A stretch of 64,000 nucleotides of DNA, from contig QCMQ01000001.1 in NCBI GenBank assembly GCA_003213615.1, positions 124,001 to 188,000 on the forward strand, read 5' to 3'. Below the pieces are notes generated by a model. The model saw only the letters and a list, made by a program, of their open reading frames with translations, did not search any database and had not been told where the DNA came from. Below, one piece after another: positions 1-33,360 of this stretch; within the stretch, counting starts at the first letter, position 1; the number at the start of each line of letters is the position of its first letter. The position numbers were made by a program, and so were the translations under genes. The stretch is from Pelagibacteraceae bacterium AG-422-D23 (GTDB lineage: Bacteria; Pseudomonadota; Alphaproteobacteria; Pelagibacterales; Pelagibacteraceae).

Positions 1-11
1 GTATATTTTTC

Positions 12-42
12 ATTGATTGCTAGATTAACTAGTATCAATTTT
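12..42 (+). terminator. Stem-loop at left edge, possible terminator
   Basis: ATTGAT (12-17) pairs with ATCAAT (34-39) and CTAG (20-23) with CTAG (29-32), giving a 10-pair stem with a small internal loop and the loop ATTAA. Only four T follow on the + strand, so it may end a gene left of the window, but it could be a chance inverted repeat in AT-rich DNA. Confidence 0.3.
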
Positions 43-47
43 AAAAA

Positions 48-398
48 TTAAAATGAATTAAAAAATTGATAAATTTGTCTAGAAATTTCACTCTCCAAAG
101 GAAATGATAACATTCCCATCACCGAATAGCCTAAGATCCAAGGCATTAGATAAAATCTAATCATGTAGAAAAACCAAGCAACATACAAAGGCACCAATGG
201 CCCAATGATAAATGAGGGTGTTATAGGTTTAAATAATTTTATTAGAGGATTGGTATATTTAACAAATACCTTCATGAAAAAAAATTGAGAATCTTCCTTT
301 TGAAAAATATTCATCGCTACTCTTCCAATAAGAGTCCACATGATAATCCCAAGCAAATAATCAACAAAATATATTAAAGGGTGAAAATTTGCTGACAT
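48..398 (-). CDS. YggT-family-like small integral membrane protein
   Basis: A 116-residue hydrophobic protein with two or three membrane segments (about residues 8-30, 55-80 and 83-100). The stretch around residues 48-70 (TNPLIKLFKPITPSFIIGPL) has the pattern of YggT proteins, where a short amphipathic Pro/Lys segment links two membrane helices. A second, clearer YggT member is at 12908-13198. YggT proteins are bacterial inner membrane proteins of poorly known role, linked to osmotic shock and cell division. It stands alone, downstream of the symporter operon but separated from it by a terminator. Family assignment is by eye and moderate. Confidence 0.55.
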   Translation of the reverse strand: MSANFHPLIYFVDYLLGIIMWTLIGRVAMNIFQKEDSQFFFMKVFVKYTNPLIKLFKPITPSFIIGPLVPLYVAWFFYMIRFYLMPWILGYSVMGMLSFPLESEISRQIYQFFNSF

Positions 399-424
399 TT
401 AAAGTTTATATTGGAAAATGTTTT

Positions 425-456
425 GAAATAAAAGGGGCGAAATTAATCGCCCCTTT
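425..456 (-). terminator. Rho-independent terminator of the symporter operon
   Basis: AAAGGGGCGA (431-440) and TCGCCCCTTT (447-456) form a perfect 10-pair stem with a six-base loop. Read on the minus strand it is followed by a T-rich run at 430-422 and lies 11 bases past the symporter stop, so it ends transcription from the DUF4212-symporter pair. Confidence 0.85.
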
Positions 457-466
457 AAAAGATTAT

Positions 467-2278
467 TTAGTGTGATTTACCAAGAATTGTTTTACCACTC
501 GGTACACGTACGTCATCAACCATTTTTTGAGTTGCTTTATCTGGTTCTGCAGTCATTAAACTAACTACTACCATTAAAACAAAACTAACAGCTGATCCGA
601 AGATACCAAATGTTAATTGTGTAATTCCTAGGAATCCACTTCCACCAGTTCGCACCCAAACTAAGTACCAAGTACCAGCAGCTAGACCTCCTAGCATACC
701 AGCAATTGCACCTTGTCTATTAGCTCTCTTCCACCATACACCAAGTACAAGTGGGAAGAATAATCCAGACATTGCAAAGTCAAATGCCCAGATAACCGAA
801 CCTAAGATTCCTTGAATCTCCATTGCTGCAATAGTTGCTCCAGCAAAACCAATTACTACAAGTAATACCCTTGCAACAAGTAGTCTCTTTGCAGTTTCCG
901 CTTTTGGATCAATGATTTTATAATAAACATCATGTGATATAGCGTTTGCAATCGCTAGAATCAAACCATCGGCAGTTGACATGGCAGCTGCCATACCTCC
1001 TGCAGCAACTAGACCTGAAATTACATAAGGTAATCCAGCTATCTCTGGAGTTGCTAATACAACGGCTTTACCACCCATGAAGAACTCATTTAATTCTAGA
1101 GTTCCATTTCCGTTAAAGTCGCTGACAAACATTAAGTTTGCTTGGTTCCAGTTTTGATACCAATCTATAGCTTGAACTTCTGCAATTGATTTACCGATAA
1201 TACCAGTTGGTAAATTCGGATCGATCAACGACAACTTAGACAGTGTAGCTAACATTGGAGCAGAAGAATAAAGTAGGAAGATAAAGAATAATGACCAACC
1301 TACTGATTTTCTAGCTGCTTTTACACTTGGAGTAGTAAAGTATCTCATCATCACGTGTGGTAATGAAGCTGTTCCCATCATCATCGCTAATGCTAATGAA
1401 ATAAATGCCCAAGGTGTAGCGTTAACTGCAGAGTGAGCTTTAGTTATTCCTGCTAAGCCTTTAGGTACAGTTTTTAGATCAGCAGCTGCGTTTTTAACAA
1501 AACCAAACTGTTGCTCTAATTCACCAATTCTAGCTACCTCGTCAGCTAACATAAAGTGAGGAAAGAAACCCGCACCCATTTTGTTACTGATCCAGAATAC
1601 TGGAAGTAGGTAAGCTATAATTAGTACAATGTATTGTGCAACCTGTGTCCAAGTTACCCCTCTCATACCACCTAACATTGAACATAATAAAATACTTATT
1701 AGTCCAATATAAACCGCGTATTGGAATGGGATATCAAGTGCAACAGATGCAATTGTACCTGTAGCGTTAATTTGTGCAGTCACATAAGTAAATGAAGCAA
1801 CAGTTAAAACTACAACTGCGCTAAATCTAGCTAAATTACCACCGTATCTAGTACCTATAAAATCTGGAACTGTATAACAGCCAAATTTTCTTAAGTATGG
1901 TGCTAATAAAGATGCAACAAGCACGTAACCACCAGTCCAACCTACAAGTAGAGCCATATAACCGTAACCTTTAAAGTAAATACCACCCGCCATTGCAACG
2001 AATGAAGCACCAGACATCCAGTCTGCTGCAGTCGCCATTCCGTTGAAGACCGTTGGTACTTGCCTACCAGCTACGTAATATGCATCTGCTTGGGCTGTTC
2101 TTGATAGCCAACCGATTAATGCATAGATGAATACAGTAAATGCAACGAAAGCGATACCGATCGCTTTAGCTGTCATACCCATCTGTTCAGCAATTGCCAT
2201 GATGATTATGAAACCTATAAATCCTCCAGTATAGATTCCATAAACCTTAGGCAAATTATCTATGAAATTACCTTTCAT
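467..2278 (-). CDS. Sodium:solute symporter, acetate/monocarboxylate type, large subunit
   Basis: A 603-residue SSS-family transporter with about 13 membrane helices, expected to couple Na+ to uptake of acetate or another short carboxylate across the inner membrane. Typical SSS segments are visible: the sheet-like start near residues 67-90 (AYYVAGRQVPTVFNG) and TAADWMSGASFVAMAG. It belongs to the subgroup that works with a DUF4212 small subunit, whose gene overlaps its start (TAATG). An extramembrane loop at residues 387-398 reads DFNGNGTLELNE, a good EF-hand-like calcium loop, as seen in relatives of this subgroup. Acetyl-CoA synthetase lies close by, which supports acetate as substrate; pyruvate or propionate remain possible. 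Confidence 0.88.
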   Translation of the reverse strand: MKGNFIDNLPKVYGIYTGGFIGFIIIMAIAEQMGMTAKAIGIAFVAFTVFIYALIGWLSRTAQADAYYVAGRQVPTVFNGMATAADWMSGASFVAMAGGIYFKGYGYMALLVGWTGGYVLVASLLAPYLRKFGCYTVPDFIGTRYGGNLARFSAVVVLTVASFTYVTAQINATGTIASVALDIPFQYAVYIGLISILLCSMLGGMRGVTWTQVAQYIVLIIAYLLPVFWISNKMGAGFFPHFMLADEVARIGELEQQFGFVKNAAADLKTVPKGLAGITKAHSAVNATPWAFISLALAMMMGTASLPHVMMRYFTTPSVKAARKSVGWSLFFIFLLYSSAPMLATLSKLSLIDPNLPTGIIGKSIAEVQAIDWYQNWNQANLMFVSDFNGNGTLELNEFFMGGKAVVLATPEIAGLPYVISGLVAAGGMAAAMSTADGLILAIANAISHDVYYKIIDPKAETAKRLLVARVLLVVIGFAGATIAAMEIQGILGSVIWAFDFAMSGLFFPLVLGVWWKRANRQGAIAGMLGGLAAGTWYLVWVRTGGSGFLGITQLTFGIFGSAVSFVLMVVVSLMTAEPDKATQKMVDDVRVPSGKTILGKSH

Positions 2279-2538
2279 TATTCGTCCTCTCTTTCGCTAA
2301 AGCCGAACTCTTCATCGATTTTTTCTTGTCTGTTCGCAAACCAGAAAATTAAGATTACGAAAGCACCAAGAGATCCCTGACACGTAAACCAATATGTCCA
2401 TGGATAACCGAAAGGTCCTGTGACCTCGTTCATTTCAGCTCCAAAGAGAAAGATGCCAATTGAGAAAACAAACCAAATTGCCAATGTTATAAATAACAAT
2501 GACCTGGTTTTTTCCCAGTGTTTTTGTTGATTTGACAT
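2278..2538 (-). CDS. DUF4212 small subunit of sodium/solute symporter
   Basis: An 86-residue protein with two membrane helices (about residues 13-35 and 48-68) and the Trp/Phe-rich motif GPFGYPWTYWFTCQG typical of DUF4212, followed by an acidic tail. DUF4212 proteins are encoded next to SSS transporters and are taken to be their small subunit. The stop codon overlaps the start of the large subunit. A strong purine-rich ribosomal binding site (AGAGAGG, about 2544-2550) lies a few bases upstream of the ATG, stronger than most in this window, which suggests high expression. Confidence 0.85.
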   Translation of the reverse strand: MSNQQKHWEKTRSLLFITLAIWFVFSIGIFLFGAEMNEVTGPFGYPWTYWFTCQGSLGAFVILIFWFANRQEKIDEEFGFSEREDE

Positions 2539-2647
2539 TTATACCTCTCTTTTTAGTTATAACTGGGTAAAACCATAACCATTATGAGAGCTTTGAAAAC
2601 CCTAAAAATTGATCATATTAGGTACTTATTTACTTACTTTTTTAAGA

Positions 2648-2653
2648 TATAAT
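2648..2653 (+). promoter_or_regulatory. -10 promoter box TATAAT
   Basis: A perfect TATAAT sits 20 bases before the ATG at 2674. No good -35 box is seen at 17 bases. It overlaps the alternative TTG start at 2653, which argues that translation starts at the ATG. Confidence 0.5.
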
Positions 2654-2673
2654 TGGCGCACTTACAAATTTAC

Positions 2674-3297
2674 ATGGGAAAATATAAATTAACTTGGAGA
2701 GACATAAAACTTGAGGATTTTAAAACATATTTATTCGCCATGTTTAAGGCGTTTATTCCAAAAAAAAAAATAAAAAATTTAGATGAACTAGAACAATTTA
2801 TCCAAACAAAATCTGCCTGGGCCACTCAAGTTACTTTATATAATTATCTAAAAACTAGAATGGGAACAAGATACGTTCTTCATTTTGATAATGATGAATT
2901 TATGTCATCAGTAAATCTTGCTAAATGGAATATTTATTCAGTTGCATTACAAGATTTAACTTTTTTTACTTTTTCATATTTAAAAGTTAATTTTAATTAT
3001 AAGGATATTCACAAAGCGAACGAAATTTTTAATAAAATTTTAGACGACGAAATTTCTAATAAGATGCCGTTAGATATTATTGATGAAGCTAGGAGAAGTT
3101 TTGATGAACGATTAGAGAAAATAAATTGGGATGGTTATTATGAAGACTTACCTTTTAATCCTAGTGCACTCTCTTTATATAAATGGGCTCCAATTGCAGA
3201 TGAATTAAAAACTTTAGATCGAAAGATCGTTTTAAATTCGATGATTTTAAAATGGGATGTTGTTAAACAAGAGTTTAAAGATTTAATTCAGTTTTAA
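2674..3297 (+). CDS. Conserved hypothetical protein, about 207 residues
   Basis: I do not recognise a family. The product is soluble, basic at the N terminus ([19 protein letters not shown]), rich in aromatic residues, with no signal peptide or membrane segment; it looks largely alpha-helical. A start at TTG 2653 would add seven residues, but that codon lies inside a TATAAT box, so the ATG at 2674 is preferred. It stands between the symporter operon (divergent) and acetyl-CoA synthetase (convergent, stop codons overlapping by a few bases), which hints at, but does not show, a link to acetate use. Confidence 0.7.
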
Positions 3298-5405: not shown

Positions 5406-5819
5406 TTAAATTCTACTCATGTTATTTATAATTTTCCAGCTTTTATAATCAACAGGCATTACAGAAAGCCTACTTTGCTTTATTAGAGCTAAGTGGCTTA
5501 AATCCTTATTTTTTTTAATATTTTCAAGTGTTATAGGCTTAGAAAATCTACTTTTAAATTGAACAGTGACAGCAACAAACCTTCCTGTTTTGTCTGTTTT
5601 ATCTAAATAAAACTCTTTTATAACCTTTACTATTCCAACTATCTCTTTTCCAATATTTGAATGATAAAAAAAACAAAGATCTCCTTTCCTCATACTTTTT
5701 AAATTCTTTGCAGCTTGATAATTTCTAACACCATCCCACGGAACACCATTTGCTCCAGCTTTTTTTTGTTGATCAATAGACCAAACATCTGGCTCAGATT
5801 TTAATAACCAGTATTTCAT
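5406..5819 (-). CDS. EVE domain-containing protein
   Basis: A 137-residue single-domain protein matching the EVE family (related to PUA, ASCH and YTH folds), which in other proteins binds modified bases in RNA or DNA. The family start MKYWLLKSEPDVWSID, the segment GVPWDGVRNYQAAKNL and the block KGDLCFFYHSN (around residues 45-55) are all clear. The aromatic residues that line the EVE pocket (Trp28, Tyr34) are present. It lies 15 bases upstream of acs on the same strand, so the two may be co-transcribed. The cellular substrate is unknown. Confidence 0.88.
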   Translation of the reverse strand: MKYWLLKSEPDVWSIDQQKKAGANGVPWDGVRNYQAAKNLKSMRKGDLCFFYHSNIGKEIVGIVKVIKEFYLDKTDKTGRFVAVTVQFKSRFSKPITLENIKKNKDLSHLALIKQSRLSVMPVDYKSWKIINNMSRI

Positions 5820-5841: not shown

Positions 5842-7719
5842 TTATTTTATATAAACTACTTTACCTTCAGAAGGTACACCAAAACTTGTTATTGCAAAAA
5901 TTAAGTAGGTTCCATCAGCTATTATATTTTTATTTTCAGGAATAGTAATCTGTATTTCATCAGCATTTATTTTCGTAAAATCTAAATTTAAATATTTTAA
6001 TTCAGATGCTTGAGCATGAGTTGTAGAACCTGTACTAATTAAAGAAATTTTTTCAATAACTGAATTATCATCAACTTTTATCCTCTGATTATTTCTATCA
6101 TTTATTAGTCTATTAATTTCTTTAATCTCTGGTCTTTTTGCTAATATAGTTTTACCTTTGCTGTCTTTTGAGAAAAGATATGGTGGATAATACAATTGTG
6201 CATTCCAAACATCCCCACCACCAACAAAAATTCTTCCATCTGGTAGTAATAAAGATGATGAATGATAATTTCTTCTAAATTCTGATTTTGATAGTTTCTT
6301 CCATACGTCATCATTAGTTTTATATATTTCTGGTGTGAAAATACTAAAATCAAAATCTTCAAATGATGCATGATTAGAAGCTGATCCACCGTTAACAAAT
6401 ACATCACCATTAGGTAAAATCGTTGCATCTGCAAAAGCTCTTGGAAAGTGCATGCTCTGTTTTTTTGTAATTTTTGGATTAAAAGAATCTGAAATATCAA
6501 TTATTATAGCTCCATTAGATGCGGCGTACTCAGTTCCAGTTTGTTGTCCACCTATAAATAAAATTTTATCTTTACCAATCATTACTGCCGACCCTCTATC
6601 TCCAACTGGAGCACTGATAGTTTTTAGCGATAATTCTTTATAATCTTTCTCATCGTTGGGATTTTTGTGAATTATTTTTTCAGAAATACCCCCTGTAACC
6701 AAAGGTATTTCACCTACTTTAGAAATTTTATAATTATTTTTTTTATCCATTACCCAAAGTTTGTTATAAGATATTCCAAATGGATTTCCGTCAGATGATA
6801 AAAAGAATTTTGGATATGACCATTCCTCATTTTCATTTGTTCCAAGCAACTCTATACTTTTTCCATCTTCTAAAATTTTCCAACTTAAGGATCCATCTTC
6901 GTTAGTAGTTAAAATTTCAGGTATAGAGCTTATTTGGTCGTCCTGTAAAACTTGATGGGGGATTATTTTTGCTCCGCCAACCATAATAAATTCATTTTCA
7001 GAGTTTCTTACAATTGAACCATACCACCGATCATAATTTAAATTAGAACCTCTTGTAAATTTTTGTGTTTTGATGTTATAAAATGTGGTAGCATTTTGTG
7101 TATCAGGACTATTTTTTTTTGGTTCTTTATTTCCTCCTAAAATAAAAACTTTTTCATTATCAAAAACCCTCACAACAGCACAAAAAGCGTCTAAAACCAC
7201 TGGCCTATGAAAAATTTTTTGACTATTTTCATTTATTCCTTTTTTTGGATCCCAAATTACAAAATCAACTCCAGATAAAACATCATGATGCATCCATTGT
7301 TTACTTCCTTTATCTCTTTCTAATTCAAATCCGTCAGTAAGTTTTAATTTCTTATTTTCACTTATATGTTTTTCCTCTTCTTTTTCTTTAATTCCATATG
7401 ACCCAAAAGTCATTACAGTTTCATCTGGTAATAAAATTGAATGAACAGCTACCACAGGCCAATCAAATGAAGGACTCCAAAGTCCATTTACGTCTGCATC
7501 AAGAGGTAGATTGATTTTGTTTATATCTATATTTTCTGCAAATAGATCAAGTGGGTTAATTACTTTTTTAGCAGAGGCCTCCCTTTTAAAAACTGCTAAA
7601 AATGTTTCTTTACCTTTGAAATAGTTCCCTAAATACAAATTTACTACAGAGTTAGCCAATATTATTCCAAAACCAAATAAAAATGACAAAATCAAAAAAT
7701 ATTTAATTATTTTGCTCAT
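5842..7719 (-). CDS. Galactose oxidase/GlxA-like copper radical oxidase, membrane-anchored
   Basis: A 625-residue protein with an N-terminal hydrophobic segment (residues 7-29, signal anchor) followed by Kelch-like beta-propeller repeats and a C-terminal DUF1929 domain (about 525-625), the layout of galactose oxidase and bacterial GlxA. The residues needed for the Cys-Tyr radical copper site can be placed: Cys180 (DAFCAVV), Tyr233 (DRWYGSI), Tyr485-His486 (RRNYHSSSLLLPDGR) and His568 (STTHAQ). This predicts an envelope enzyme oxidising an alcohol or aldehyde with O2, giving H2O2. The substrate is unknown; GlxA-type enzymes act on glycans in the cell envelope. It is divergent from the sugar dehydrase gene at 7861. 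Confidence 0.8.
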   Translation of the reverse strand: MSKIIKYFLILSFLFGFGIILANSVVNLYLGNYFKGKETFLAVFKREASAKKVINPLDLFAENIDINKINLPLDADVNGLWSPSFDWPVVAVHSILLPDETVMTFGSYGIKEKEEEKHISENKKLKLTDGFELERDKGSKQWMHHDVLSGVDFVIWDPKKGINENSQKIFHRPVVLDAFCAVVRVFDNEKVFILGGNKEPKKNSPDTQNATTFYNIKTQKFTRGSNLNYDRWYGSIVRNSENEFIMVGGAKIIPHQVLQDDQISSIPEILTTNEDGSLSWKILEDGKSIELLGTNENEEWSYPKFFLSSDGNPFGISYNKLWVMDKKNNYKISKVGEIPLVTGGISEKIIHKNPNDEKDYKELSLKTISAPVGDRGSAVMIGKDKILFIGGQQTGTEYAASNGAIIIDISDSFNPKITKKQSMHFPRAFADATILPNGDVFVNGGSASNHASFEDFDFSIFTPEIYKTNDDVWKKLSKSEFRRNYHSSSLLLPDGRIFVGGGDVWNAQLYYPPYLFSKDSKGKTILAKRPEIKEINRLINDRNNQRIKVDDNSVIEKISLISTGSTTHAQASELKYLNLDFTKINADEIQITIPENKNIIADGTYLIFAITSFGVPSEGKVVYIK

Positions 7720-7860: not shown

Positions 7861-9054
7861 ATGAAAAAAATTTATTATGGAAAAGCTGTATATGACAAAA
7901 GAGAAATTAATGCAGTAATAAAAGTTCTTAAAAATAAGAGTTTGAGCCTAGTAGATGGCGAGGAAGTTAAAAAATTAGAAAAAACAGTCTCAAAAATATT
8001 TGGTAAAAAATTTGGTTTAATGGTCAACTCAGGTTCATCGGCAAACCTTTTAGCTTTAGCCTCCTTTAATTTTAAAAAAGGGTCTGAGGTAATAACTCCA
8101 AACTTAACTTTCTCAACTACTGTTGCTCCAATTTATCAATTGGGATTGATACCACATTTTATTGGTGTTGAAAAAAATAAGTTTGTTGCAGATCCATCAG
8201 AGATTGAAAAGTGCATAAATAAAAAAACTGTAGCAATAATGATACCAAATCTTTTAGGTAACATAGCAGATTGGAAATCTATAAACAAAATTGCTAAAAA
8301 ATATAAGTTAAAAGTAATAGAAGACTCGGCAGATACGATTGGATATACATGTAACAATCAAATTGAAGGTAAATATTCAGACATTGTTACCAATAGTTTT
8401 TATGCTTCACATATTATTAATGGAGCAGGCACAGGTGGAATAGTCTGTTTCAACGATAATAAATTATATAAAAAAGCAAAATTGCTTAGAGGATGGGGCA
8501 GATCTTCAACATTATTTAATGAGTCAGAGGAGATAGAAAAAAGATTTAATATAAAAGTTTCTGGTATTGATTATGATGCAAAATATATTTTTTCAGAAAT
8601 AGGTTATAATTTTTTACCTTCTGAGATTTCTGCAGCATTTGCATTAGAACAAATAAAAAAATTAAAAAAAAATATTTTTGTAAGAAATAAAAATTTTAGC
8701 TATTTGAAGTCTTTTTTTGGAAAATATCCTAAATATTTTAATTTACCCGAGCAATACCCTGGTATCAAAACACCCTGGCTTGCTTTTCCTTTGGTTATAA
8801 AAAAAAATAAAAAATTTAACAGAAAAAAAATGCAAATATTTTTTGAGAGGAATCATATTCAGACAAGAACAATTTTTACTGGTAATATTTTAAAGCAACC
8901 TGTAATGAAAAATAAATTTTTTAAGAAAACATCCACGTGTAGTAAAGTTGCTGATGATGTAATGAAAAATGGTATTCTCTTAGGTTGTCATCATGGAATG
9001 AATAAAAGTGAATTAAAATATATTTGCAACACATTTAAAAAATTAATTAATTAA
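7861..9054 (+). CDS. DegT-family PLP sugar 3-dehydrase-like enzyme (active-site His)
   Basis: A 397-residue member of the DegT/DnrJ/EryC1/StrS fold. Asp155 (VIEDSAD) is placed to hold the PLP ring nitrogen, and 29 residues later the usual Schiff-base lysine is replaced by His184 (SFYASHIINGAGTGG). The same change is known in ColD and in RfbH/E1, which remove the 3-hydroxyl of 4-keto-6-deoxy sugars for O-antigen or antibiotic sugars. RfbH/E1 also carry cysteines for a [2Fe-2S] cluster after RDWGRD; here that region (LLRGWGRSSTLFNES) has none, so it is closer to ColD in mechanism. No other sugar-nucleotide gene is nearby, so the substrate cannot be named. Confidence 0.8.
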   Translation: MKKIYYGKAVYDKREINAVIKVLKNKSLSLVDGEEVKKLEKTVSKIFGKKFGLMVNSGSSANLLALASFNFKKGSEVITPNLTFSTTVAPIYQLGLIPHFIGVEKNKFVADPSEIEKCINKKTVAIMIPNLLGNIADWKSINKIAKKYKLKVIEDSADTIGYTCNNQIEGKYSDIVTNSFYASHIINGAGTGGIVCFNDNKLYKKAKLLRGWGRSSTLFNESEEIEKRFNIKVSGIDYDAKYIFSEIGYNFLPSEISAAFALEQIKKLKKNIFVRNKNFSYLKSFFGKYPKYFNLPEQYPGIKTPWLAFPLVIKKNKKFNRKKMQIFFERNHIQTRTIFTGNILKQPVMKNKFFKKTSTCSKVADDVMKNGILLGCHHGMNKSELKYICNTFKKLIN

Positions 9055-9077: not shown

Positions 9078-10151
9078 TTATAGTTTAATACCAGATCCTT
9101 TAAGAAACTCAGCGTTTTCGTCTAAAGGCCATCTAGGTTTTGCTGGATAGTCCAAATTATTAAATTGATTTAATTTAAATTTTTCTAAACCTACCATTGC
9201 AATCATTGCTGCATTATCTCCACAGAGCTCTATAGGTGGAAAAATATTTTTATAATTATTTTCTTTGCATAGATTAATCAACATAGACCTAATTTTTTTA
9301 TTTGCTGCAACACCACCCGCAACTACAAAGATTTTTTCATTGAGTTTATTTAATTTTTCAAATTCATTAAAGGCAATTTTTGTTTTTTTGTATAAAATTT
9401 CTTCAATTGTTTTTTGAAAAGATGCTGCGATATCATATTTATCTTGTTCAGATTTAATAGTTTTACTTATTTTCATTACAGCAGTTTTTAGACCTGCAAA
9501 AGAAAGATTGCATCCTCCTTTGCTAAAAATTGGTTTAGGTAAATCATATTTTTTTGGATCACCTTTTTCAGCCAAAATTTCTATTTGAGGACCTCCAGGA
9601 AATTCTATGTCTAAAAGTTTTGCTGTTTTATCAAACGCCTCACCTAAAGCATCATCAATAGTCGTTCCTAATCTTTTATATTTACCGAGATTCTGAACAC
9701 TTAAATATTGTGAGTGCCCACCTGAAATTAAAAGAAGTAAATATGGATAATTTAGATTTGTATTTAGTTTTGGACTTAAGGCATGTCCCTCTAAATGATT
9801 AACAGCAATAAAAGGCTTATTCATTGCTGTTGCGAAAGCTTTACCAAAACTTAATCCAACTGATAGACAAACAATTAATCCAGGACCAGCAGTAGAAGCA
9901 ACCGCATCTATTTCTTCAATTTTTCTCCCACTTTCATAAATAGCTTTTTTAACAATCCAATCAATTTTTTCAATGTGTGAACGAGCTGCTAGTTCAGGAA
10001 CTACACCACCAAACTCTCTATGAACCTCCACTTGACTAGAAACAATATTCGATAAAACTACTGGTAATCCTTCTTCATTTTCAGTTATTAAAGAAGCTGC
10101 AGTTTCATCACAACTAGACTCTATTCCAAGAATTAAGGGTTTTTTGCTCAT
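9078..10151 (-). CDS. tsaD: tRNA threonylcarbamoyladenosine synthase subunit TsaD
   Basis: TsaD (Gcp/Kae1 family), 357 residues, transfers the threonylcarbamoyl group to A37 of ANN-decoding tRNAs, working with TsaB, TsaC and TsaE. The N-terminal GIESSCDETAASL, the metal-binding HLEGH near residue 121-125, the ISGGHSQYL block and the GGVAANKKIR motif near residue 288 are all present. Length is normal. It is divergently arranged with hemC across 54 bases, a pairing often seen in alphaproteobacteria. Confidence 0.97.
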   Translation of the reverse strand: MSKKPLILGIESSCDETAASLITENEEGLPVVLSNIVSSQVEVHREFGGVVPELAARSHIEKIDWIVKKAIYESGRKIEEIDAVASTAGPGLIVCLSVGLSFGKAFATAMNKPFIAVNHLEGHALSPKLNTNLNYPYLLLLISGGHSQYLSVQNLGKYKRLGTTIDDALGEAFDKTAKLLDIEFPGGPQIEILAEKGDPKKYDLPKPIFSKGGCNLSFAGLKTAVMKISKTIKSEQDKYDIAASFQKTIEEILYKKTKIAFNEFEKLNKLNEKIFVVAGGVAANKKIRSMLINLCKENNYKNIFPPIELCGDNAAMIAMVGLEKFKLNQFNNLDYPAKPRWPLDENAEFLKGSGIKL

Positions 10152-32391: not shown

Positions 32392-32845
32392 AAATATTTC
32401 ACAAAATATAGCTCATTTTGGATTTAGTTTTTTAATCCTAAGTATTTTGTTTAACAATTTATTTGCAACTGAAATTATAACAAATCTTAAGGTTGGTGAA
32501 ACTTTTGAAAATTCAAAAACTAAGATAGTTTTTGAAAGCATTGATCAGAAAAAAGAACAAAATTATAATGCTATTATTGCAAATTTTTTTATAAGTAATT
32601 CAAATGGTGAAGAAGATAGACTTACGCCAGAATTGAGAATTTATAATCAACCTGTCATTGCCACAAGTGAAGCTGATATTAAAACAACTTTGATGTCAGA
32701 TAAATTTATCGTAATTAATCTGGTTCAAAATCAAGATTTTTTCAACGTAAGATATCAAGTTAAACCATTTATGTTATGGATTTGGTTATCAGTAATTCTA
32801 ATATCTTTTGGGGGAATTGTTAGCTTTTTACAAAAAAAATCATGA
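32366..32845 (+). CDS. ccmF: CcmF, C-terminal part in shifted frame
   Basis: The frame is open from 32366 and reads through NISQNIAHFGFSFLILSILF, which matches the conserved AHxG membrane helix of CcmF, then a periplasmic beta-rich part (LKVGETFENSKTKIVFESI) and a last membrane helix (LWIWLSVILISFGGIVSFL). A gene finder would report only 132 residues from TTG 32447, but that start lies inside the helix and is not natural. It overlaps the ccmG start by four bases. Confidence 0.85.
   Translation, partial: EIFFVKKYKNISQNIAHFGFSFLILSILFNNLFATEIITNLKVGETFENSKTKIVFESIDQKKEQNYNAIIANFFISNSNGEEDRLTPELRIYNQPVIATSEADIKTTLMSDKFIVINLVQNQDFFNVRYQVKPFMLWIWLSVILISFGGIVSFLQKKS
32369..32387 (+). other. One-base frameshift site within ccmF (T8 and A7 runs)
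   Basis: The two ccmF frames meet in a run of eight T (32370-32377) followed by gta and seven A (32380-32386). Moving to the downstream frame needs one extra base to be skipped. A one-base homopolymer gain, a sequencing or assembly error, or slippage on the run could each explain it. Confidence 0.85.
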
Positions 32846-33360
32846 AAAATAAAATATTACCTTTTTCAGTTATTATTATTTTTGGAATAATATTTTTTAT
32901 TTTTTACAAAGGTTTAGAAGACTCAAAAATTTACACTCCAGATGTTAATACAAAAAAAGAGATACCAGTGTTTAATACTAAAGAATTTTTTTCTGGAGAA
33001 AATGTGAAGTCATCAAGTATCTTTGAGTTAGATAAGATTTATTTATTAAATATTTGGTCATCTTGGTGCGTACCATGTCGACAAGAGCATCCTTTTTTAA
33101 TGAATTTAAATTTAGATAATAAAGTAAATATTATTGGGATGAATTATAAAGATAATTTAAAAAATGCAGAAAATTTTTTAGAAGAACTAGGAAACCCATA
33201 TAAAGAAATCTTTATTGACATAGATGGAACAATTGCAATTGAATGGGGAGCTTATGGGGTTCCCGAATCATTTTTAATTTATAAAAATAAAATTATTAAA
33301 AAATATATTGGACCTCTTAACCAAGAATTAGTTGATGAAATTAATTTATTGATAAAATGA
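32842..33360 (+). CDS. ccmG: Thiol:disulfide interchange protein CcmG/DsbE
   Basis: A 172-residue membrane-anchored thioredoxin-like protein. One N-terminal helix (residues 5-22) is followed by the thioredoxin fold with active site WCVPCR (Cys76, Cys79) and the cis-Pro loop YGVPESFLIY. It reduces apocytochrome c cysteines ahead of haem attachment. Overlaps ccmF and ccmH by four bases on each side. Confidence 0.94.
   Translation: MKNKILPFSVIIIFGIIFFIFYKGLEDSKIYTPDVNTKKEIPVFNTKEFFSGENVKSSSIFELDKIYLLNIWSSWCVPCRQEHPFLMNLNLDNKVNIIGMNYKDNLKNAENFLEELGNPYKEIFIDIDGTIAIEWGAYGVPESFLIYKNKIIKKYIGPLNQELVDEINLLIK

Follow-up and report, generated by a model that had tools for sequence, protein, structure and literature searches.

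A SAR11 genome, that of Pelagibacteraceae bacterium AG-422-D23, was found to encode a protein that is very probably a genuine copper radical oxidase, with its cross-link, copper content, and activity predicted from sequence and a structural model. The gene lies in a 64,000-nucleotide stretch of DNA, analyzed here as a whole and referred to as the window, in which an earlier note had correctly placed it at positions 5842–7719; the strand, absent from that note, is minus. Most of the copper radical oxidases characterized so far come from fungi, the bacterial reference being GlxA of Streptomyces, and the SAR11 clade would represent a bacterial version having both a membrane anchor and a second-sphere Trp of the aldehyde-oxidase type. 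Few known genomes are as streamlined as those of SAR11, and since this accessory copper enzyme—probably a peroxide-making one—is kept intact there in copies differing by half of their residues, it probably pays its way. Within the openly accessible literature, a copper radical oxidase appears to be new for SAR11, while the protein itself belongs to a known kind of enzyme whose chemistry should be predictable. Indeed, no report of a SAR11 copper radical oxidase was found in openly accessible full-text literature, which does not imply absence from print, and the available portions of two articles mention none (PMC4585252; PMC7597016).

The residues expected for the copper center, namely Cys180, Tyr233, Tyr485, His486, and His568, sit at exactly the numbers assigned to them in the earlier note. 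Galactose oxidases are the PDB matches of the window protein in phmmer searches (E 7e-32 to 2e-28), as well as the best solved relatives of a profile made from five SAR11 sequences (E 7e-40). In the phmmer alignment with the galactose oxidase structure 1gof, Tyr485 and His486 fall on Tyr495 and His496, and His568 falls on His581. In the alignment of the five-sequence profile, these three residues are within a stretch of approximately 129 bits, and Cys180 and Tyr233 fall on Cys228 and Tyr272 of 1gof, the N-terminal stretch alone contributing only approximately 7 bits. Homologues without these residues, named beforehand as evidence that would count against the assignment, were looked for, and all five residues proved to be invariant in the five SAR11 proteins, that is, in the window protein and four homologues 48–72% identical to it, and in all of the 23 aligned homologues. 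This alignment comprises five SAR11 sequences, five from viral contigs, eight from other Pseudomonadota genomes, and five from plasmids; a Nostoc sequence (L069) was left out, its frame having been missed by the motif search.

The domain content and the predicted fold point to the same enzyme group. In Pfam scans, the window protein matched the galactose-oxidase-like early-set domain (PF09118; E 1.5e-14), together with kelch motifs, and passed the cut-off of Glyoxal_oxid_N (PF07250) marginally, with 37.9 bits against 37.5 (E 1.5e-9). The latter family scored 42.9–48.7 bits in three other SAR11 proteins, its cut-off being passed in all four scanned; it also matches the bacterial/viral-contig proteins L055 and L056 and is therefore not specific for AA5_1. 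An AlphaFold2 model calculated from seven sequences (mean pLDDT 69.2, pTM 0.76) was used for structural comparison, and a two-sequence model (pLDDT 45.6) was discarded. A copper radical oxidase-like fold was borne out when this model was compared with galactose oxidase and GlxA structures. AA5-type enzymes occupied Foldseek ranks 1–27 (E 2e-36 to 3e-24), followed by Kelch domains (4e-11). In VIA-align, the top match was a bacterial galactose oxidase (Z 44.1, rmsd 2.5, 444 residues aligned), with galactose oxidases at Z 41–44 (1gof at 42.1), GlxA at 39–40, FgrAldOx at 38.2, and the first unrelated propeller at 22.9. Thus, by Pfam, Foldseek, and VIA-align, a kelch propeller with a C-terminal early-set architecture spans approximately residues 72–625. 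Model confidence is low near Cys180, with residues 173–177 below a pLDDT of 50 and a mean of 53 for block 171–180. Because Kelch propellers without activity are common, the protein might be a catalytically dead propeller whose fold is kept as a binding protein; this is quite improbable given first-shell residues that are invariant in all 23 sequences, even between SAR11 copies with as little as 48% identity. The features of the locus are collected in Table 1.

Table 1. Positions in the window of the oxidase gene, its predicted functional residues and segments, and the neighboring genes.
Feature	Position	Strand	Basis
Copper radical oxidase-like protein, 625 aa	5842..7719	-	ORF, ATG start, PF09118, PF07250, PDB and fold matches
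N-terminal hydrophobic segment, residues 8-26	7642..7698	-	Hydropathy; model helix 2-33
Insertion, approximately residues 110-150	7270..7392	-	Alignments; mostly low pLDDT
Cys180, predicted thioether partner (Cys228 of galactose oxidase)	7180..7182	-	Profile alignment, 23/23, codon checked
Trp232, predicted second-sphere Trp of GlxA/AA5_1 type (GlxA Trp288, FgrAldOx Trp509)	7024..7026	-	RWY motif
Tyr233, predicted radical tyrosine (Tyr272 of galactose oxidase)	7021..7023	-	Profile alignment, 23/23
Lys251, at galactose oxidase Trp290 position	6967..6969	-	Alignment; K/K/K/D/D across five SAR11 proteins
Tyr485-His486, predicted copper ligands (Tyr495-His496)	6262..6267	-	phmmer, profile alignment, 23/23
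His568, predicted copper ligand (His581)	6016..6018	-	phmmer, profile alignment, 23/23
C-terminal GO-like early-set domain, residues 529-624	5848..6135	-	PF09118
EVE-domain protein, flank of insertion site	5406..5819	-	PF01878; position across genomes
RfbH/E1-type sugar 3-dehydrase-like protein	7861..9054	+	NF011936, closest PDB 3bcx, His184
TsaD-like protein, other flank of insertion site (marker tsaD)	9078..10151	-	Sequence; 2-bp gap to EVE in 13 of 23 EVE loci

The second coordination sphere bears on the type of enzyme. In galactose oxidase, the second-sphere Trp290 is located on another loop than the radical Tyr. The structure sequences of GlxA, in which the W288A variant reads arAyptl and the wild type arWyptl, indicate that Trp288 adjoins the Tyr in that enzyme. 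In the AA5_1 aldehyde oxidase FgrAldOx, Trp509 immediately precedes the radical Tyr510, and GlxA Trp288 occupies the same flipped place (PMC13094651, 2026). Among the 23 aligned homologues, 15, including all five SAR11 proteins, carry a Trp immediately before the radical Tyr but lack one at the Trp290 column; six have a Trp at the Trp290 column with Gly or Ala before the radical Tyr; two (L055 and L007) have a Tyr before the radical Tyr; and both Trp placements occur together in none. The GlxA/AA5_1-type arrangement was thus found in five of five SAR11 proteins, as read from the alignment and not from geometry. The Trp290/Arg330 pair has been described as a key indicator of galactose 6-oxidase activity (PMC11267884), and in the alignment the SAR11 proteins contain neither Trp290 nor an Arg330 loop of the YRSDN type. 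AA5_1 enzymes and GlxA have been reported to have a common aldehyde-oxidizing profile and Trp placement (PMC13094651). Because the SAR11 proteins show that placement and lack the Trp290/Arg330 pair, an aldehyde, or a sugar end that bears one, would be the likelier substrate, with galactose being unlikely.

Phylogeny qualifies this comparison. In a tree constructed without fungal AA5_1 sequences, the Trp290-type proteins have as their sister L008 (97/95), itself a protein with the RWY motif, and it is to these that the SAR11 proteins plus L007 are joined (90/88, not starred), with the GlxA-like L058 placed elsewhere. With RWY in L008 and Tyr in L007, the Trp motif and the tree agree only in part, and the comparison with GlxA and AA5_1 therefore concerns active-site arrangement, not descent. 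It is also counterbalanced by the best sequence and fold matches, which are galactose oxidases, and by the finding that Phe or Tyr may take the place of Trp290 in AA5_2 enzymes (PMC13094651).

A membrane anchor had also been claimed for the protein, and a hydrophobic N-terminus was found in all five SAR11 copies, the best 19-residue hydropathy being 2.3 at residues 8–26 in the window protein and 2.4–3.1 in the four homologues. This segment is probably an uncleaved signal anchor that would leave the catalytic part in the periplasm, a topology suggested by Lys3 and Lys6 and by the fact that no cleavage site was seen. An insertion at approximately residues 110–150 is common to the five copies and, according to the alignment, is not present in their nearest relative, L007. 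In the mechanism proposed here, the uncleaved helix would hold the protein in the inner membrane, with the propeller and early-set domain on the periplasmic side, and Cu(II) would be bound by Tyr233 (linked to Cys180), Tyr485, His486, and His568. The Tyr233–Cys180 radical, shielded by Trp232, would withdraw two electrons from its substrate, a primary alcohol or hydrated aldehyde, and O2 would then re-oxidize the center, yielding H2O2.

The oxidase gene is rare, being present, always as an intact frame, in 5 of 397 genomes sampled from the order, and in 3 of 399 sampled from the genus; some genomes are common to the two samples, among them that of the window. It was found in only the window's own genome in a sample of 385 from the class, and in 9 of 398 genomes, again including that of the window, from the phylum. 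Such rarity (5/397) might reflect contamination of an assembly or a misread frame, an explanation with a practically negligible chance of being correct, since five genomes have the frame intact and bordered on either side by SAR11 genes, and the G+C content of the gene (29.5%) is close to that of the window (30.5%). One of these genomes is that of the uncultured Pelagibacteraceae bacterium AG-447-O14 (source of homologue L006), for which plate AG-447 is listed in a table of a single-cell study (PMC6122165); AG-447-O14 itself was not found in open full-text literature. The gene is on a 416-kb contig, four further genomes from its genus have homologues flanked by SAR11 genes, and the locus is, as far as can be seen, chromosomal SAR11 DNA.

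A single clade (100/100) unites the five SAR11 proteins in a tree in which the letter composition of the SAR11 rows is unlike that of the remaining rows, and the oxidase gene is a rare accessory gene that probably moved laterally. A viral or plasmid origin was considered and rejected. No match was obtained in 50,697 phage records, the 24 matches among 72,556 plasmid records were all below 60% identity, and no relative emerged from viral contigs when these were scanned with the alignment of the SAR11 proteins. Motif scans did detect copper radical oxidase-like proteins in five IMG/VR contigs (L053–L057) and in one more (L058), none of them belonging to the SAR11 clade; L059–L061 were chance motif matches and were dropped, and neither L053 nor L054, a partial frame on the contig of L063, was taken further.

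A dehydrase-like gene starting at 7861 lies head to head with the oxidase gene in the window, which had been read as a hint of glycan modification at the cell surface, with co-occurrence of the two genes proposed as a check. The nearest solved structure of the 7861 product is CDP-6-deoxy-hexulose 3-dehydrase (3bcx); the product has His184 at the position of the PLP lysine and scores 304.7 bits with NF011936 (RfbH), below the cut-off of 423. Orthologues with 73–81% identity were found in 6 of 24 other genomes searched, among which only G243 has the oxidase; the other five are G003, G013, G028, G036 (a partial match at a contig end), and G048. No dehydrase accompanies the oxidase at its locus in G243 or G360, genomes in which a 79% orthologue and a 52% homologue, respectively, are on contigs other than that of the oxidase, while G329 has only a 30% homologue and G130 has none at the limit used. 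This distribution and synteny contradict a co-occurrence of the two genes; the head-to-head partnership was therefore rejected, and the dehydrase is no conserved partner of the oxidase. In G048, G013, and G243, for which its surroundings were inspected, the dehydrase orthologue adjoins genes of nucleotide-sugar type, recognized from ORFs and, for two of those in G013, checked by Pfam, so the copy in the window looks displaced. A 79% relative of the G013 nucleotidyltransferase is present in the window's genome on another contig.

The glycan idea thus loses its basis in the dehydrase, and it is retained here on the strength of the insertion site. The oxidase and dehydrase genes of the window lie between an EVE-domain gene and a gene whose product is TsaD-like, as judged from its sequence. 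The EVE gene is present in 23 of the 25 genomes examined (all 5 carriers of the oxidase and 18 of 20 non-carriers), and at 13 of these 23 loci it is 2 bp from the tsaD-like gene, so that the junction is empty. Two of the 13 empty junctions belong to the carriers G130 and G329, in which the oxidase is instead located between groEL- and typA-like genes, in opposite orientations, with a helicase-like gene between oxidase and typA in G130 (all names read from sequences); no glycan gene was recognized beside the oxidase in either genome. There are thus two chromosomal sites for the oxidase, tsaD–EVE and groEL/typA-like. The tsaD–EVE gap of G243 and that of G360 hold the oxidase and no other gene.

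Among the 18 non-carriers with an EVE locus, the junction is empty in 11 and occupied in 7, and a glycan-type gene is present in each of the 7, one match being weak. Four of the genomes (G017, G026, G028, and G036) carry GT41 proteins with TPR repeats, to which G028 adds a TPR-sulfotransferase; G011 carries a sulfotransferase and G046 a carbamoyltransferase, and G042 shows no more than a weak match to an NDP-sugar transferase (26.6 bits versus 22). Mainly because of this cargo pattern, which gives indirect support and is not applicable to G130 and G329, a surface-glycan role is favored. Against it, surface-glycan genes are a common cargo of SAR11 flexible regions. In addition, the tsaD–EVE exchange site could serve to track the turnover of glycan-modifying genes in Pelagibacter.

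As judged by gene position, the oxidase may tailor an envelope glycan, a tentative assignment given somewhat less than an even chance and placed level with the oxidation of small aldehydes. In the latter case, the same enzyme would oxidize small aldehydes or alcohols, such as methylglyoxal, glycolaldehyde, and glyceraldehyde, in the periplasm, for detoxification or carbon gain, and this job is held equally tentatively. The aldehyde-oxidizing profile reported for AA5_1 enzymes and GlxA, with the Trp placement seen here, speaks for it (PMC13094651), as does the oxidase of G243 and G360 being in line with tsaD-like, EVE, and acetyl-CoA-synthetase-like genes, a row that exists without the oxidase in 13 of 23 loci. 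However, the tsaD–EVE site holds glycan-type cargo in other genomes, and no other gene was observed moving along with the oxidase between the two sites (in 1.5-kb flanks for L002 and L003 and in longer ones for L006, L080, and L081). The envelope-glycan role can be extended to a fuller proposal, in which the oxidase is exchangeable cargo at a site where Pelagibacter swaps glycosyl-, sulfo-, and carbamoyl-transferases, and oxidizes sugar ends at the cell surface, perhaps altering phage receptors, in lineages without KatG; taken as a whole, this proposal is speculative and rather unlikely to hold in every part.

The lineage had been described as usually lacking catalase, which does not hold for the genus, as a KatG-type peroxidase (PF00141, mostly two matches in one frame of approximately 745 aa) is encoded in 173 of 299 genus genomes at least 80% complete, but does hold for the carriers, none of which (0/5) has a KatG-type or heme catalase gene. 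KatG-type genes are present in 12 of 20 non-carriers, and heme catalase (PF00199) was found in none of the 25 genomes, carriers included. The p value for KatG versus the oxidase is 0.039 in Fisher's test, and 0.013 when the genus rate is taken as the expectation for the five carriers, in a comparison in which the carriers are related and three of them are 83–87% complete, with the 20 controls, non-carriers from the order listing, being 97–100% complete. A mutual exclusion of the oxidase and KatG is thus suggestive only, and the finding points to it as a testable relationship. A catalase gene has been noted in SAR11 HTCC7211 (PMC6775983), and catalase has been noted in some SAR11 sub-populations (PMC6122165).

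These observations bear on whether the protein is instead a deliberate source of H2O2 outside the cytoplasm, used as a weapon or in metal chemistry, with the substrate incidental. H2O2 is indeed the co-product of copper radical oxidases (PMC13094651). However, self-harm by H2O2 would be more likely in carriers that have neither KatG-type nor heme catalase genes, and the window's genome has five AhpC-TSA-family matches, some of which may be peroxidases; a dedicated H2O2 source is therefore regarded as improbable. A redoxin-like protein encoded at 32842–33357, two ORFs after a CcmF-like gene, is outside these five matches and is taken for a cytochrome-c-maturation thioredoxin, not a peroxidase.

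Among known systems, the closest in the tree is L007 (genome G905, same class as the window's genome), the sister of the SAR11 clade (99/95), which differs from the SAR11 copies in having 28–33% identity, no insertion at residues 110–150, a long C-terminal extension, and Tyr instead of Trp before the radical Tyr. The AA5_2 galactose oxidases (Fusarium graminearum 1gof; Pseudoarthrobacter siccitolerans 9g43) share the five first-shell residues and provide the best sequence and fold matches, whereas the window protein is without Trp290 and the Arg330-type loop and has a hydrophobic anchor instead; unlike in galactose oxidase, Pfam detected no additional carbohydrate-binding domain at its N-terminus. 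FgrAldOx (PDB 9n3u), representing the AA5_1 fungal glyoxal/aldehyde oxidases, has the fold (Z 38.2), the Trp–Tyr arrangement, and the PF07250 match in common with the window protein. However, the window protein is bacterial, the identity in the structural alignment is 18%, the lowest among the AA5-type rows, and, unlike in the AA5_1 fungal enzymes, Pfam detected no WSC domains in the window protein. Finally, GlxA of Streptomyces lividans/coelicolor (PDB 4unm) is likewise bacterial and is cell-surface associated (PMC3543389). The window protein scores 127.6 bits with the GlxA equivalog NF052501, below its cut-off of 800, the beta-barrel domain of GlxA (PF21110) gave no match in the four scanned SAR11 proteins, and the insertion at approximately residues 110–150 is SAR11-only; nevertheless, GlxA and the SAR11 protein share the five first-shell residues, the Trp before the radical Tyr, and the fold (Z 39–40).

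The content of the junction between the tsaD-like gene and the EVE-domain gene was observed to vary among the loci compared, with a 2-bp gap and no cargo in 13 of the 23, the copper radical oxidase-like gene as cargo in 3, and genes for GT41, sulfotransferase, carbamoyltransferase or sugar-transferase-like proteins in the other 7. Overall, in Pelagibacter this junction appears to be a place where genes are exchanged. At the EVE locus of genome G036, the EVE match in one stretch (L050) was reported to contain a single in-frame TGA, probably because the match extends beyond the stop; another stretch of the same locus (L083) shows a 134-aa ORF.

Features of the junction and of two further oxidase-bearing sequences
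Feature	Sequence	Coordinates (strand)	Remarks
tsaD-EVE junction	window	5820-9077	loci compared include L044, L052, L077-L079, L082 and L083
Open frame with copper-oxidase domain	L056, IMG/VR viral contig	4-3105 (-)	single frame, 1034 aa
SCO family-annotated gene	L068, Paraburkholderia plasmid	152-796	immediately precedes a copper radical oxidase-like gene

A KatG-type (PF00141) peroxidase gene was found in none of the five oxidase carriers (G000, the genome of the window, and G130, G243, G329 and G360), as against 173 of the 299 genus genomes at least 80% complete, a comparison uncorrected for kinship and completeness; with that qualification, the oxidase and the KatG-type gene are possibly mutually exclusive.

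On the viral contig, the open frame ends in a copper-oxidase domain, and its first part, as read from the sequence, appears to resemble a multicopper oxidase or cupredoxin. On the plasmid, the position of the gene annotated as SCO family, a family of the copper chaperone type, provides a hint as to how bacterial copies of the copper radical oxidase may be loaded with copper.
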